Assembly (NCBI GenBank): GCA_022701985.1
Contig: JAKONK010000178.1
Coordinates: forward strand, 1 to 32,525
Reading direction: 5' to 3'
Length of the DNA stretch: 32,525 bases
Source of the DNA: Actinomycetales bacterium
GTDB lineage: Bacteria > Actinomycetota > Actinomycetes > Actinomycetales > Quadrisphaeraceae
The notes beneath the pieces are model-generated. The model had not been told where the DNA came from, did not search any database, and was given only the letters and a program-made list of their open reading frames with translations. The position numbers were made by a program, and so were the translations under genes. Positions 2,716 to 13,570 of the stretch are shown one piece after another (the stretch's first letter is position 1; each line of letters begins with the position of its first letter).

Positions 2716-3825
2716 TCAGCCGACCGTCGTCCCGAACAGCAGGCCCAGCAGGTAGGTGGCCGCCGCGGCGCCGAGGCCGATGGCCAGCTGGCGCAGGGCC
2801 CGGGGGAGCAGCGGCGCCCCCGACAGCACGCCCACCACGGCCCCGGTGGCCAGCAGCGCCAGCGAGACGAGCACCAGGGCCACGCCCAGCGCGGCCCACC
2901 CGGTGAGCCCCAGCAGGAACGGCAGCACCGGCACGAGCGCTCCGCTGGCGAAGAAGCAGAACGACGACGACGCCGCCGACCACGCGCTGCCGACCACGTC
3001 CTCGCCGTCGTCGTCCGCGGCGCTCCCGCCGGTGGCGTCGACCCGGCCGGCGTCCGCCCCGGGGAGCCCCGCCAGCTGCTCCGCGGCGTGCCGCTCGGCC
3101 TCCTCGGGGGCCATGCCCCGAGCGCGGTAGACCAGCGCCAGCTCGTTCGCGTCGACGTCGAGCGCGCGGACCACCGCGGGGGCGTGCGCCGCCGGCGCCG
3201 AGGCCGCGATCAGCTCGCGCTGGGAGCGGACCGAGACGTACTCCCCGGCGCCCATCGACAGCGCTCCGGCGAGGAGGCCCGACACCCCCGTCAGCAGGAC
3301 GGCGCCGCTGCCGACCCCGGCGCCGGCGACCCCCAGGACGAGCGCCAGGTTGGACACGAGGCCGTCGTTGGCCCCGAACACGGCGGCGCGGAAGGTGCCC
3401 GACACGCGCGCGCGGCCCCGGGCGGCCAGCCCGCGGACCACCTCGCCGTGCACCGCTTCGTCGGCGGCCATGGCCTTGGTGGCGTCGGGCTCGCGGCCGT
3501 AGCTCGAGCGCGCCTCGGCCTGCTGGGCGAGGGCCAGGACGAAGACCGAGCCGATCCGCAGGGCCAGGAGCGCCAGGAGCCGCAGCCCGAGCCCGGGACG
3601 GCTGGGCCGCGCGGGAGCCCCCGTGCGCTCCTGGAGCAGCACCGCCCAGTGCGCGGCGTGGCGGCCCTCCGCCTCGGCCAGCGCGAGCAGCACCTCGCGC
3701 TCCTCCCCGGAGCGCCGCGCGGCGAGCCGGCGGTAGACGCGGGCCTCGTAGAGCTCGTCGGCGAGGTGCCGCCGCCAGCGCCGCACCTGCGCGGAGGTGG
3801 CGGGCGGGTGGGGCTCGTCGGCCAC
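2716..3825 (-). CDS. Ferritin-like/VIT1 fusion membrane protein (MbfA-like iron or manganese transporter)
   Basis: A 369-residue fusion. The N-terminal third is a helical rubrerythrin/ferritin-like domain: ELYEARVYRRLAAR, then EAEGRHAAHWAVLL, supplying Glu and His of a di-iron type. The rest is a VIT1/CCC1 transporter: FRAAVFGANDGLVSNLALVLGVAGAG, LAGALSMGAGEYVSVRSQRE and two C-terminal membrane helices. Proteins of this layout (MbfA in rhizobia) export iron and protect against oxidative stress; VIT1 relatives also move manganese. The start at GTG 3825 follows GGAGG; a GTG at 3861 is in frame but poorly served by its Shine-Dalgarno. It diverges from the chemoreceptor gene. Direction of transport and metal are inferred from family. 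Confidence 0.85.
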   Translation of the reverse strand: MADEPHPPATSAQVRRWRRHLADELYEARVYRRLAARRSGEEREVLLALAEAEGRHAAHWAVLLQERTGAPARPSRPGLGLRLLALLALRIGSVFVLALAQQAEARSSYGREPDATKAMAADEAVHGEVVRGLAARGRARVSGTFRAAVFGANDGLVSNLALVLGVAGAGVGSGAVLLTGVSGLLAGALSMGAGEYVSVRSQRELIAASAPAAHAPAVVRALDVDANELALVYRARGMAPEEAERHAAEQLAGLPGADAGRVDATGGSAADDDGEDVVGSAWSAASSSFCFFASGALVPVLPFLLGLTGWAALGVALVLVSLALLATGAVVGVLSGAPLLPRALRQLAIGLGAAAATYLLGLLFGTTVG

Positions 3826-5613: not shown

Positions 5614-7161
5614 TCAGTGACCGGCGCCGCTGAGGCGGGCGGGGATCATGCGCCACGCCAGCACGGCGGCCACGGCCGTCAGCGCCGCGGCGCTCAGCGA
5701 GGTCACCTGCATCGCGTGGACGAAGGCCTCGCGGGCCGCCTCGAACGCCGCGCCGTCAGCCCCGGCCGCGTGCGCGCCGGCGAGGGAGTCACCGGCGGCG
5801 GAGGCCACCGCCGGGTCGGTGCCGGCCGGCAGGTCCAGACCACCGCGGTAGACCAGGCCGAGCAGCGAGCCGAGCAGCGCGATGCCCAGGGCGGTGGCCA
5901 GCTCGTAGGCGGTCTCCGAGATCGACGACGCTGCACCGGCGCGCTCGGACGGCACCGCGCTGACCACGGCGTCGACGGCCACGGTCTGGCTCAGACCGAC
6001 GCCGAGGCCGATCGGCACGAGGGTGAGCGCGAGCCACAGGTAGCTCGAGGCCCCCTCGGCCACCGCGAGCAGCACGAGCCCGGCGGCCGCCGCACCCAGC
6101 CCGACTGCGGCGGTGCGCCCGGCGCCCAGGCGCGGCAGCACCAGGCCGATGACGGCGATCGCGGCGATGGCCGCGAGCATCAGGGGCGTCTCGCGCAGTC
6201 CGGCCTCGAGGGGGCTGAAGCCGCGGGCCAGCTGCAGGTACTGCGAGAAGAAGAACAGCAGGCCCGCCAGCGGGAACACGGAGGCGAAGTTGACCGCCAC
6301 CGCGCCCGAGAAGGCCGGGCGGCGGAACAGCTCGACGTCGATCAGCGGGTGCTCCAGGCGGCGCTGGCGGCGGACGAACGCCACCAGGCCGACGGCGCCC
6401 ACCGCGGCGCTCAGCACGGTCATCGCGTCCAGGCCCACGTGGGCCAGGTGCTTGACGGCGTACACGGCGGAGACCAGGCCGACGAGGGAGAGCACCACCG
6501 AGCGCAGGTCGATCGGGCCGGGCGCGGGGTTCCTGGACTCCGGCAGCAGCAGCGCGCCGCCGACCAGCAGCACCGCCACGACGGGCAGGTTGATCAGGAA
6601 GACCGAGCCCCACCAGAAGTGCTCCAGCAGCGCCCCGCCGACCAGGGGCCCGAGGGCGGCGCCGCCGGAGGCACCCGCCGACCAGATGGCGATGGCGAGG
6701 GTCCGCTGGCGAGGCAGCCCGAAGATGCTGCGGATCAGCGACAGCGTCGACGGCATGAGCGTGGCGCCGGCCACGCCGAGCAGCAGCCGGGCGGCGACGA
6801 GCGCCTCGGGCGTCGTCGCCAGCGCCGCGAGCAGCGACGCGCCCCCGAAGGCCGCAGCGCCCATGAGCAGCAGCTTCTTGCGGCCGATGCGGTCGGCGAC
6901 GTTGCCCATGGTGACCAGGAGCCCGGCCAGGGCGAGGGAGTAGATGTCACCGATCCACAGGACCTGGGAGGACGTGGCCCCCAGGTCCGCCGTGAGGGCG
7001 GGGACGGCGAGCGCCAGGACGGTGGCATCGACCGCGAGCAGGACGACGGCGAGGACGAGCACGCCCAGGCCCGCCCACTCCTTCCAGCCGGCGGCTCGCT
7101 GCCGGTCGTCGGTTCGGGGGCTCTGCGGTGCCTGCTGCGCGTCGAGGCCCGGCGTGGCCAT
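5614..7161 (-). CDS. DHA2-family MFS drug efflux transporter (14 TM)
   Basis: A 515-residue exporter driven by the proton gradient. DHA2 signatures are visible: motif D1-like LAVDATVLALAVPAL in TM1, motif A GNVADRIGRKKLLLMG between TM2 and TM3, and motif C region GVAGATLMPSTLSLIRSIF with WSAGASGGAALGPLVGGALLEHFWWGSVFLINLP. Alternating hydrophobic stretches fit 14 helices, as in LfrA and QacA, which expel lipophilic cations, dyes and fluoroquinolones. The ATG at 7161 has GGAGG six nt upstream, better than the ATG two codons earlier, which abuts it. It diverges from a TetR gene across a 30-bp palindrome, the normal layout for a drug-inducible pump. The substrate is not predictable. Confidence 0.92.
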   Translation of the reverse strand: MATPGLDAQQAPQSPRTDDRQRAAGWKEWAGLGVLVLAVVLLAVDATVLALAVPALTADLGATSSQVLWIGDIYSLALAGLLVTMGNVADRIGRKKLLLMGAAAFGGASLLAALATTPEALVAARLLLGVAGATLMPSTLSLIRSIFGLPRQRTLAIAIWSAGASGGAALGPLVGGALLEHFWWGSVFLINLPVVAVLLVGGALLLPESRNPAPGPIDLRSVVLSLVGLVSAVYAVKHLAHVGLDAMTVLSAAVGAVGLVAFVRRQRRLEHPLIDVELFRRPAFSGAVAVNFASVFPLAGLLFFFSQYLQLARGFSPLEAGLRETPLMLAAIAAIAVIGLVLPRLGAGRTAAVGLGAAAAGLVLLAVAEGASSYLWLALTLVPIGLGVGLSQTVAVDAVVSAVPSERAGAASSISETAYELATALGIALLGSLLGLVYRGGLDLPAGTDPAVASAAGDSLAGAHAAGADGAAFEAAREAFVHAMQVTSLSAAALTAVAAVLAWRMIPARLSGAGH

Positions 7162-7177
7162 CGTCATCCTCCGTCTA

Positions 7178-7207
7178 GTTACTGCACTGACCGGTCAGTA
7201 CAGTAAC
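7178..7207. promoter_or_regulatory. TetR operator (30-bp near-perfect palindrome)
   Basis: The half-site GTTACTGCACTGACC (7178-7192) is followed directly by its reverse complement with one mismatch (7193-7207). The inner core ACTGACCGGTCAGT is perfect. It lies 17 nt before the MFS start and 52 nt before the TetR start, so it can repress both. It is far more AT-rich than its surroundings. Confidence 0.85.
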
Positions 7208-7258
7208 GGCGGGTGGCACGATGTCAACCCGACCCGACGAGAGGACGACGACGAGCAC

Positions 7259-7943: not shown

Positions 7944-8447
7944 TCAGGGGAGGTCGACCTTCTCGTTCTCCCCGCCCGAGTAGGGCTTGCCGGTGACCTT
8001 GGCCTTGGCGAAGCTCAGCACCGACGCGACGCGACCGCCGGGGGTGTCCCAGTACTCCGCCGACTCGCCGTCGACCTTCAGCAGGGCGATGGCGGGGTCG
8101 TCCTTGCCGTCGGGGAACCACGCCTCCACCACGGTGTTCCACAGCTCGCGCTTCTTGGCGTCGTCGGCGACGACCGAGGCGCGGCCGGTGAGCGACACCC
8201 AGCTGTCGGACGACGCGAACGTCACGTTCACCTGCGGGTGGGTGGTGAGGTGCTGCACCTTGCGCGAGCCGCGCTCGGCGAAGAACCACAGGTCACCGCC
8301 GAAGTCGGCGGCCTGCACCGCCATCGGGCGGCTCATCAGCGTGCCGTCGGGGGAGGTGGTGGTGAGCATCGCCTGGCGCTCGTCGGCGATGAGCTCGGAC
8401 ACCTTCGCGACGTGGTCGGAGGAGCTGCGGGTGCTGTCGTCTGCCAT
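7944..8447 (-). CDS. Pyridoxamine 5'-phosphate oxidase-fold general stress protein
   Basis: A 167-residue FMN-type split barrel of the general stress protein 26 family. Visible blocks: RQAMLTTTSPDGTLMSRPMAVQ, DLWFFAERGSRKVQHL, PQVNVTFASSDSWVSLTGRASVV, and a C-terminal WFPDG...DPAIALLKVDGESAEYWDTPGG, where the W and D residues are family-typical. Such proteins bind flavin and are induced by salt, heat or oxidative stress, but no reaction is proven. The ATG at 8447 is the only plausible start; its Shine-Dalgarno (GGTAGGG) is weak. It stands alone between two terminator or regulatory regions and converges with the TetR gene. Confidence 0.88.
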   Translation of the reverse strand: MADDSTRSSSDHVAKVSELIADERQAMLTTTSPDGTLMSRPMAVQAADFGGDLWFFAERGSRKVQHLTTHPQVNVTFASSDSWVSLTGRASVVADDAKKRELWNTVVEAWFPDGKDDPAIALLKVDGESAEYWDTPGGRVASVLSFAKAKVTGKPYSGGENEKVDLP

Positions 8448-8539
8448 GTCTGCGCCCTACCCGCCCCGGCCCCGCTGACACACCGCCCGCGGCCCCTGCG
8501 ACCGCTCACCGGACCCCCCGTCGGGGCGACGCGCCGCGC

Positions 8540-8583
8540 CGTGTCCCCCTCGTGTCCCAACCGTGTCTGAACCGTGCCCGAGC
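8540..8583 (+). repeat. Four tandem 11-bp repeats (possible response-regulator box)
   Basis: Units CGTGTCCCCCT, CGTGTCCCAAC, CGTGTCTGAAC and CGTGCCCGAGC start at 8540, 8551, 8562 and 8573, exactly 11 bp apart. Such helical-phase direct repeats are typical of OmpR/PhoB-family binding sites. The array ends 38 bp upstream of the -10 hexamer of the small gene at 8634, a position suited to activation. Confidence 0.55.
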
Positions 8584-8621
8584 ACGGAGCGCAACCGCCC
8601 CCACGGACGGGCGGGGCGCCC

Positions 8622-8627
8622 TAGCGT
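8622..8627 (+). promoter_or_regulatory. Leaderless -10 element TAGCGT
   Basis: TAGCGT ends 6 nt before the GTG at 8634. With no Shine-Dalgarno present, transcription would begin at or next to the start codon. Confidence 0.55.
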
Positions 8628-8633
8628 GATCGG

Positions 8634-8822
8634 GTGTTCGGCATCGACGGCTTCGAGGGCGTCTTCACCGTCGTCCCCCTGCTCTTCTGGGCGGCGGTCG
8701 TGGTGGCGCTCGGCTGGGTCGTCCGCCGGGTCGTGCGCCAGGGGCGCCCCCGCAGCGAGGCGCACCACCAGTGCCCCGCGGAGGCGGAGACCGCACGCGC
8801 GCCCACGTCCTGGCGGCGCTGA
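8634..8822 (+). CDS. Small single-pass membrane protein
   Basis: A 62-residue protein: a short N-terminus (MFGIDGFEG), one strong membrane helix (residues 10-30, TVVPLLFWAAVVVALGWVV), then an Arg-rich cytoplasmic tail (RRVVRQGRPRSE) and a polar end. Positive-inside charge places the C-terminus in the cytoplasm. I do not recognise a named family. Support for its being real: the leaderless promoter arrangement at the GTG, the upstream 11-bp repeat array, and a similar layout in the small protein at 14491. It is transcribed toward padR, 52 nt away. Confidence 0.6.
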   Translation: MFGIDGFEGVFTVVPLLFWAAVVVALGWVVRRVVRQGRPRSEAHHQCPAEAETARAPTSWRR

Positions 8823-8846: not shown

Positions 8847-8880
8847 TGCCATGCCTGCCGATGCATCGTCAGGCATGGCA
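8847..8880. promoter_or_regulatory. PadR operator overlapping the padR start codon
   Basis: A 34-bp inverted repeat, half-site TGCCATGCCTGCCGATG (8847-8863), its complement following at 8864-8880 with one mismatch. The padR ATG (8875) lies inside the right arm, so bound repressor would cover the promoter and start codon of a leaderless message. Confidence 0.75.
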
Positions 8881-9195
8881 CTGACCGAGCCCGCCGTGCT
8901 GGTCCTGACGGCCCTGGTGGGAGAGACCCGCCACGGGTACGCGCTCATCGCCGGGGTCGAGGAGCTCTCCGAGGGCCGCACCCGGCTGTCGGTGGGCACC
9001 CTCTACGGCCTGCTCGACCGCCTCAGCTCCGAGGGGCTCATCGCCCTCGACCGCGAGGAGCGCCACCAGGGGCGCACCCGCCGCTACTACCGCCTCACCG
9101 ACGACGGCGCCGCCGCCCTCGAAGCCGAGGCCCAGCGCCTGGCGCACCTCGCCCGCGCGGCCAGCGCGCGGCTCCGCACCGCCAGGGCGGTGTGA
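8875..9195 (+). CDS. PadR-family transcriptional regulator
   Basis: A 106-residue PadR-type winged helix (short subfamily). Helices and wing are clear: EPAVLVLTALVGETRHGYALIAGVEELSEGR, then the recognition helix segment VGTLYGLLDRLSSEGLI and the wing R.GRTRRYYRLTDDGAAALEAEAQ. These regulators usually repress themselves and the next gene and respond to small molecules or envelope stress. The ATG at 8875 is fixed by homology (MALTEPAVLVLTAL) and lies inside a 34-bp palindrome; there is no Shine-Dalgarno, so the message is probably leaderless. The next gene starts 1 nt after its stop, forming an operon of two. Confidence 0.9.
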   Translation: MALTEPAVLVLTALVGETRHGYALIAGVEELSEGRTRLSVGTLYGLLDRLSSEGLIALDREERHQGRTRRYYRLTDDGAAALEAEAQRLAHLARAASARLRTARAV

Positions 9196-12499: not shown

Positions 12500-13570
12500 G
12501 TGGACCTCTTCACCCCCGCCGACCTCGGCGCCCTGCACCTGGCCAACCGCGTCACGATGGCGCCGCTGACGCGCCTGCGCTCCGGCGAGCGCGGCGTCCC
12601 CGGCGACCTCGTCGCCGAGATGTACGCCCAGCGCGCCAGCGCCGGCCTCCTCGTCACCGAGGGCACCTGGCCCGTCCAGGAGAGCCGCGGCTGGGTCGGG
12701 CAGCCCGGCATCACCACCGACGAGCAGCAGGCCGCCTGGGGCCGCGTCGCCGACGCCGTACACGCCGAGGGCGGCACCATCGTCATGCAGGTCATGCACG
12801 CCGGGCGCGTCACCCACCCCGCCGTCACCGGCAGCCGCGTGGTCGCCCCCAGCGCCGTCGCCATCGACGGCGAGGTGCGCACCCCCGCCGGCAAGGATGC
12901 CTACCCGGTCCCCCACGCCCTGACCCTCGACGAGCTCGCCGAGGTCCGCGACCAGTTCGTCGCCGGCGCCCGCCGCGCCCGCGCCGCCGGCATCGACGGC
13001 GTGGAGGTGCACGGGGCCAACGGGTACCTGCTGCACGAGTTCCTCTCCCCCGCCTCCAACACCCGCACCGACGCCTACGGCGGCTCGCCCGAGAACCGCG
13101 CGCGCTTCGTGGTCGAGGTCGTGCGCGCCGTCGCCGAGGAGATCGGCGCCGACCGCACCGCCCTGCGCATCAGCCCGATGCACAACATCCAGGACGCCTT
13201 CGAGCGCGACGAGGACGACGTGGTCGCCACCTACGGGGCGCTGGCCGACGGGCTGGCGGGGCTCGGGCTGGCCTACGTCTCCGTGCTGCACGCCCACCCC
13301 GCGGGCGAGCTCGTGCAGGGGCTGCGCAAGCGCTTCGGCGCCCCGCTGGTCGCCAACACGGGCTTCGCCGAGCCGACCACGCGCGAGAGGGCCGCGGAGC
13401 TGCTGGCCAGCGGCGCCGCCGACGCCGTGGCCGTGGGCCGTCCGCTCATCGCCAACCCCGACCTGGTCGAGCGCTGGCGCACCGGTGCCCCCGAGAACGA
13501 GCCCGACGGCTCGACCTTCTACTCGGACGGCGCCGCCGGCTACACCGACTACCCGCGCCTGGGCGCCTGA
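12500..13570 (+). CDS. Old yellow enzyme-family NADH:flavin oxidoreductase
   Basis: A 356-residue FMN TIM-barrel ene-reductase (NemA/XenB-like), full length. Motifs: DLFTPADLGALHLANRVTMAPLTR at the start, GLLVTEGT, IVMQVMHAGR, the substrate-binding VEVHGANGYLLHEFLSP (His near residue 170 and Asn three on), NTRTDAYGGSPENRARF, LRISPMHN, and the phosphate-binding LVANTGF and AVAVGRPLIANPDL. It reduces activated C=C bonds or nitro compounds with NAD(P)H. The GTG at 12500 matches family N-termini but has no Shine-Dalgarno. An upstream stretch (TTGAAACCTGGAAC) is a possible regulatory site. It ends at a strong hairpin. Confidence 0.93.
   Translation: MDLFTPADLGALHLANRVTMAPLTRLRSGERGVPGDLVAEMYAQRASAGLLVTEGTWPVQESRGWVGQPGITTDEQQAAWGRVADAVHAEGGTIVMQVMHAGRVTHPAVTGSRVVAPSAVAIDGEVRTPAGKDAYPVPHALTLDELAEVRDQFVAGARRARAAGIDGVEVHGANGYLLHEFLSPASNTRTDAYGGSPENRARFVVEVVRAVAEEIGADRTALRISPMHNIQDAFERDEDDVVATYGALADGLAGLGLAYVSVLHAHPAGELVQGLRKRFGAPLVANTGFAEPTTRERAAELLASGAADAVAVGRPLIANPDLVERWRTGAPENEPDGSTFYSDGAAGYTDYPRLGA

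Follow-up and report, generated by a model that had tools for sequence, protein, structure and literature searches.

A four-unit, 11-bp phased CGTGTCC array upstream of a small membrane protein gene in Quadrisphaera, a candidate operator for an OmpR/PhoB-family response regulator

In the window, by which we mean the whole 32,525-nucleotide stretch of DNA analysed, an array of four head-to-tail CGTGTCC-like units at 11-bp steps lies between a divergent pyridoxamine-oxidase-like gene and a gene for a 62-residue membrane protein. The array is genuine, is conserved in the closest relative and is probably functional. With moderate confidence we read it as the operator of a response regulator in the OmpR/PhoB family, MtrA being the likeliest candidate. 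The kind of box is already known (OmpR/PhoB-family, MtrA-like) and this array is a further example of it. Taken singly it is one candidate operator for a small membrane protein of uncharacterised role. It led, however, to a set of CGTG(A/T)CC-N4 boxes, genome-wide and so far unmapped, both in Quadrisphaera and in its order. This set is a candidate MtrA regulon predicted from sequence alone; among its putative targets are the transport of phosphate, sugars and amino acids, hpf, rsiG, cytochrome oxidase and rRNA promoters.

Structure and conservation of the array

The preliminary description spoke of four exact 11-bp tandem repeats. The unit starts read from the window sequence (8540, 8551, 8562 and 8573), the 11-bp step and the exact hexamer CGTGTC in the first three units all hold, but the unit at 8573 reads CGTGCC, with C for T, and the 11-bp units (CGTGTCCCCCT, CGTGTCCCAAC, CGTGTCTGAAC and CGTGCCCGAGC) are not identical, their spacers being unrelated to one another. 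The search unit suggested there, CGTGTCNNAAC, fits just two of the four. The open reading frame given as the presumed target does exist, and the placing of its -10-like hexamer, 6 nt before the GTG start codon, belongs to a spacing kept in the genus. Features are listed in Table 1.

Table 1. Features in and around the array (window coordinates)
Feature	Position	Strand	Basis or remark
Divergent gene, pyridoxamine 5'-phosphate oxidase-like protein	7944..8447	-	PF16242, E 7e-55
Unit 1, CGTGTCC	8540..8546	+	Sequence; best window match of model R1 is 8534-8558
Unit 2, CGTGTCC	8551..8557	+	Sequence; same in Quadrisphaera sp. INWT6
Unit 3, CGTGTCT	8562..8568	+	Sequence; same in Quadrisphaera sp. INWT6
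Unit 4, degenerate, CGTGCCC	8573..8579	+	Sequence; low unit-matrix score
Inverted repeat CCGTGC-CCGA-GCACGG, overlapping unit 4	8572..8587		Read from sequence; kept in INWT6
-10-like hexamer TAGCGT	8622..8627	+	Within conserved core CCTA[GC]CGTGATCR
Leaderless gene, 62-residue membrane protein (presumed target)	8634..8822	+	Orthologues in congeners

The array is beyond chance expectation. It matches itself at 22 of 28 positions at a lag of 11; third-order Markov simulations of the window predict 0.05 exact period-11 triplets per window, and none of 40 such simulations gave a triplet together with a near-matching fourth unit. The exact CGTGTC triplet occurs once in the genome. The unit matrix scores the pair formed by units 3 and 4 at 10.2, against 18.8 for units 1 and 2. 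Because it has no T-run, the inverted repeat that overlaps unit 4 is not a terminator.

For conservation we compared the window genome with five Quadrisphaera congeners, the closest being Quadrisphaera sp. INWT6. Block 8524-8583 is 95-100% identical to INWT6, with identical repeat units and a single changed spacer base inside the array, as against 10-60% for the preceding 60 bp (8464-8523) and 82% for third codon positions in the adjoining gene. Downstream of the array, up to the start codon, identity is at least 90%, while the stretch towards the divergent gene is not conserved; since conservation is confined to the side of the small gene, the array is tied to that gene. Control of the pyridoxamine-oxidase-like gene instead, which might be considered given that the two genes share one intergenic region, is improbable to us in view of this one-sided conservation and of the orientation of the boxes, which as in most of the class point to the small gene.

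In the other four congeners no such array was found at the small gene, so that two of the six species carry it. This narrow distribution, together with the fact that only three of four units are exact, would suit a product of chance or slippage devoid of regulatory function, an explanation to which we attach very little probability: the units are identical in two diverged species whose upstream flanks are not, and a model blind to this array recognises it (see below). The unrelated spacers also disfavour recent slippage.

Orthologues of the 62-residue protein, which matches no Pfam family above the cut-off, are present in all five congeners at 43-63% identity. The core promoter CCTA[GC]CGTGATCR is kept in all six genomes, the window included, and the -10-like hexamer stands 6-7 nt from the start codon throughout the genus, a distance so short that the small gene looks leaderless genus-wide. 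Four of the congeners have a GTTCC element about 18 bp upstream of the -10, whereas the window and INWT6 are C-rich at this position, with no recognisable -35, and the array sits further upstream. This contrast, read off the sequences, is only suggestive. It could mean that the promoter was rewired within the genus, the window/INWT6 clade having a four-unit CGTGTCC array upstream where the GTTCC -35-like element is absent, and that an uncharacterised membrane microprotein thereby came under the control of a global response regulator, whose affinity or output may be specific to CGTGTCC. We regard this scenario as speculative.

Two palindromes occur elsewhere in the window. A 34-bp near-perfect palindrome at 8847-8880 (TGCCATGCCTGCCGATG/CATCGTCAGGCATGGCA) overlaps the start of a PadR-family gene (8875-9195; PF03551) and is probably that gene's own operator. 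The other, a near-perfect 30-bp palindrome at 7179-7208 (GTTACTGCACTGACC/GGTCAGTACAGTAAC), lies between an MFS transporter gene (5614-7167, minus strand; PF07690) and a divergent TetR-like gene (plus strand), and is probably a TetR operator.

Genome-wide distribution of CGTG(A/T)CC-N4 boxes

Genome counts were obtained by pattern searches in which the reversed pattern served as control. Triplets of CGTGWC at 11-bp steps, with up to 2 mismatches, numbered 20 in this genome against 0 for the reversed control and 15 against 1 in INWT6; three other congeners gave 9 against 2, 11 against 1 and 10 against 5, and the sixth genome showed no excess (10 against 9). Pairs of the form CGTGACC-N4-CGTGACC, with at most 1 mismatch, were found 35 times in this genome (reversed control, 0), and most of the 59 genomes examined from the order show an excess of them. 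When the contigs of all genomes were scanned for four CGTG-units spaced 11 bp apart, the hits were mostly unrelated repeats in Bacteroidales and Lentisphaeria. Model R1, a sequence-only model trained on 18 other arrays with this one left out, gives the array 12.2 bits, the highest score in the window; the runner-up reaches 6.6.

Congeners share many of the arrays. Some stand 5' of a gene for a fasciclin lipoprotein, between the genes for a sugar-binding protein and a ROK regulator, and between mutY and another binding-protein gene. Further shared arrays lie near UDP-glucose dehydrogenase, thiL, rsiG, hpf, pstS and an apparent rRNA operon; some of the gene names at shared arrays are presumptive, assigned by recognising the sequence and not by family search. 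Fifty of the 66 sites examined fall outside called genes. Where a site has a single downstream gene, 22 sites face that gene and 4 do not, a count that relies on a rough gene caller and includes orthologous sites that are not independent. The class thus recurs at many promoters with a preferred orientation, and the array itself consists of head-to-tail units 6-7 bp long that follow one another at roughly one helical turn (10-11 bp), 5' of a promoter, both as expected of OmpR/PhoB operators.

Within the class, CGTGTCC occurs in phase with CGTGACC in the arrays at the ROK/sugar-transport locus, at the UDP-glucose dehydrogenase locus and at others, and is therefore most readily understood as another form of the same box. 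We also considered that CGTGTCC arrays form a separate class of sites, whose members would be this array and the latter half of the ROK array, bound by a regulator other than the reader of CGTGACC. Exact CGTGTCC-N4-CGTGTCC is indeed confined to these two arrays in the genome, and no unit here has A at position 5; the mixing of both forms within single conserved arrays is, however, what one protein reading both would be expected to leave, and we consider a separate class unlikely.

Other arrays deserve mention. Seven CGTGACC-N4 units stand 5' of an rsiG-like gene (PF22802; L187 about 2982-3053, G000:C61 about 13281-13352), and 11-bp repeats of the CGTGTC/CGTGTG type are found 5' of apparent rRNA operons (L162 about 2390-2420; L195 and L204 about 2990-3020). 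An array of CATGACCGGGT units lies between a MerR-type gene and a bifunctional-nuclease-like gene (L258 about 2508-2560; G002:C134). Arrays of CGTGCCC only (G001 C1:583742 and G000 C252), which resemble simple tandem duplications, were excluded from the class; the former (L160 about 2742-2800) is made of perfect tandem CGTGCCCTGGT copies and probably arose by simple duplication, not as a regulator array.

Candidate regulators

The preliminary description had assigned the 11-bp phasing to OmpR/PhoB-type sites, with Streptomyces PhoP as its example, and had made the proposal depend on conservation in close relatives and on further arrays in the genome. The family-level assignment is supported, the 11-bp direct repeats and the 7-bp unit matching the published MtrA box; the array is kept in INWT6, though not in the four other congeners, and many more arrays appear in this genome and in relatives once position 5 may be A or T. 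PhoP, on the other hand, was the wrong member of the family.

At pstS, GTTCACC boxes stand separately, as GTTCACC-N4-GTTCACC in sister genera and as GTTCGCC-N4-GTTCACC in Quadrisphaera, there next to a separate CGTGACC pair, while the array units are CGTGTCC-like; the unit matrix gives GTTCACC -3.2 and CGTGACC 12.1. A Streptomyces-type PhoP was accordingly rejected as binder, and so was GlnR. The actinomycete GlnR box reads GTnAC-n6-GaAAC (PMC10704036); no GAAAC element is present in the array, and amtB carries a different box, its promoters in Quadrisphaera having GAAAC, GTAAC and GGAAC elements and not CGTG(A/T)CC. As the PhoP and GlnR boxes are separate motifs in these genomes, neither accounts for the class. 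Among the pstS promoters collected (L293-L298), those of Quadrisphaera have the CGTGACC pair upstream of the PhoP-type box, and the sister genera examined have the PhoP-type box only.

In M. tuberculosis the MtrA motif is a direct repeat of c-G-T/A-n-A-C/T-c with four-base spacing (PMC6265350), and in Streptomyces it is G/T-T-G/A-A-C-C-N5-G-T-G/T-A-C (PMC5650626). The class consensus, CGTGACC-N4-CGTGACC, fits both. This array has T or C at position 5 in all four units where the MtrA consensus has A; other arrays of the class contain the A-to-T form in phase. The genome contains mtrA, with mtrB and lpqB in its neighbourhood, and we take the recognition helix of its MtrA to resemble that of M. 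tuberculosis MtrA.

MtrA is the best single candidate, though short of proof. The boxes, this array included, might instead be bound by another OmpR-family response regulator, for example one like M. tuberculosis PhoP or AfsQ1, through the same head-to-tail mechanism. The genome has 14 Trans_reg_C matches, some of them proteins that we presume to be like M. tuberculosis PhoP, and GTnAC-type boxes are common to several actinobacterial regulators. For the most part, too, the targets seen are not cell-wall hydrolases but nutrient transport genes, sugar regulators, hpf, rsiG and genes for cytochrome oxidase and fasciclins; the classic MtrA targets elsewhere are rpf and nlpC/P60 genes. In Quadrisphaera the rpf genes, most of the nlpC/P60 genes that were examined and the mtrA promoter lacked strict boxes, any matches there being weak, and at none of the genome's response-regulator genes did the promoter carry such boxes. 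Against this, other genera of the order do have boxes 5' of rpf genes and of an rpfB-like gene, the conserved CC after GTGA and the preceding C fit the MtrA consensus, and enrichment throughout the order calls for a widely kept regulator such as MtrA. What we take to be the M. tuberculosis PhoP box, moreover, does not fit the conserved C-GTGA-CC. On balance we see a different family member as a possible but rather unlikely reader. A literature search found no response-regulator work on Quadrisphaera.

If MtrA or a relative of it is the regulator, each 7-bp unit (CGTG[A/T]CC) would accommodate a single winged-helix DNA-binding domain, and the 4-bp spacers would set the units about one helical turn apart, so that two head-to-tail dimers could lie on the same face of the helix. 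A phosphorylated regulator of this family would in this way cover units 1 to 4 as two dimers. Counted from the predicted start site, the units, oriented to the leaderless gene, begin at about 94, 83, 72 and 61 bp upstream. Such a placement would plausibly serve activation, the bound protein aiding RNA polymerase where the promoter has a good -10 and no recognisable -35; repression may be an alternative.

Comparison with known systems

Three known boxes invite comparison. The Streptomyces PhoP box shares with the array its 11-bp direct repeats and OmpR-family architecture, but differs in its unit, GTTCACC. The GlnR box has the 11-bp period and a GTnAC half-site in common with it and differs in the GAAAC element. 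Closest are the MtrA boxes of M. tuberculosis and Streptomyces, which have the same head-to-tail arrangement, 4-nt spacer and 11-bp period and a 7-bp unit, cGTnACc, from which the units here depart at position 5 by T or C; the published sites are usually described as two units, whereas four are stacked here.
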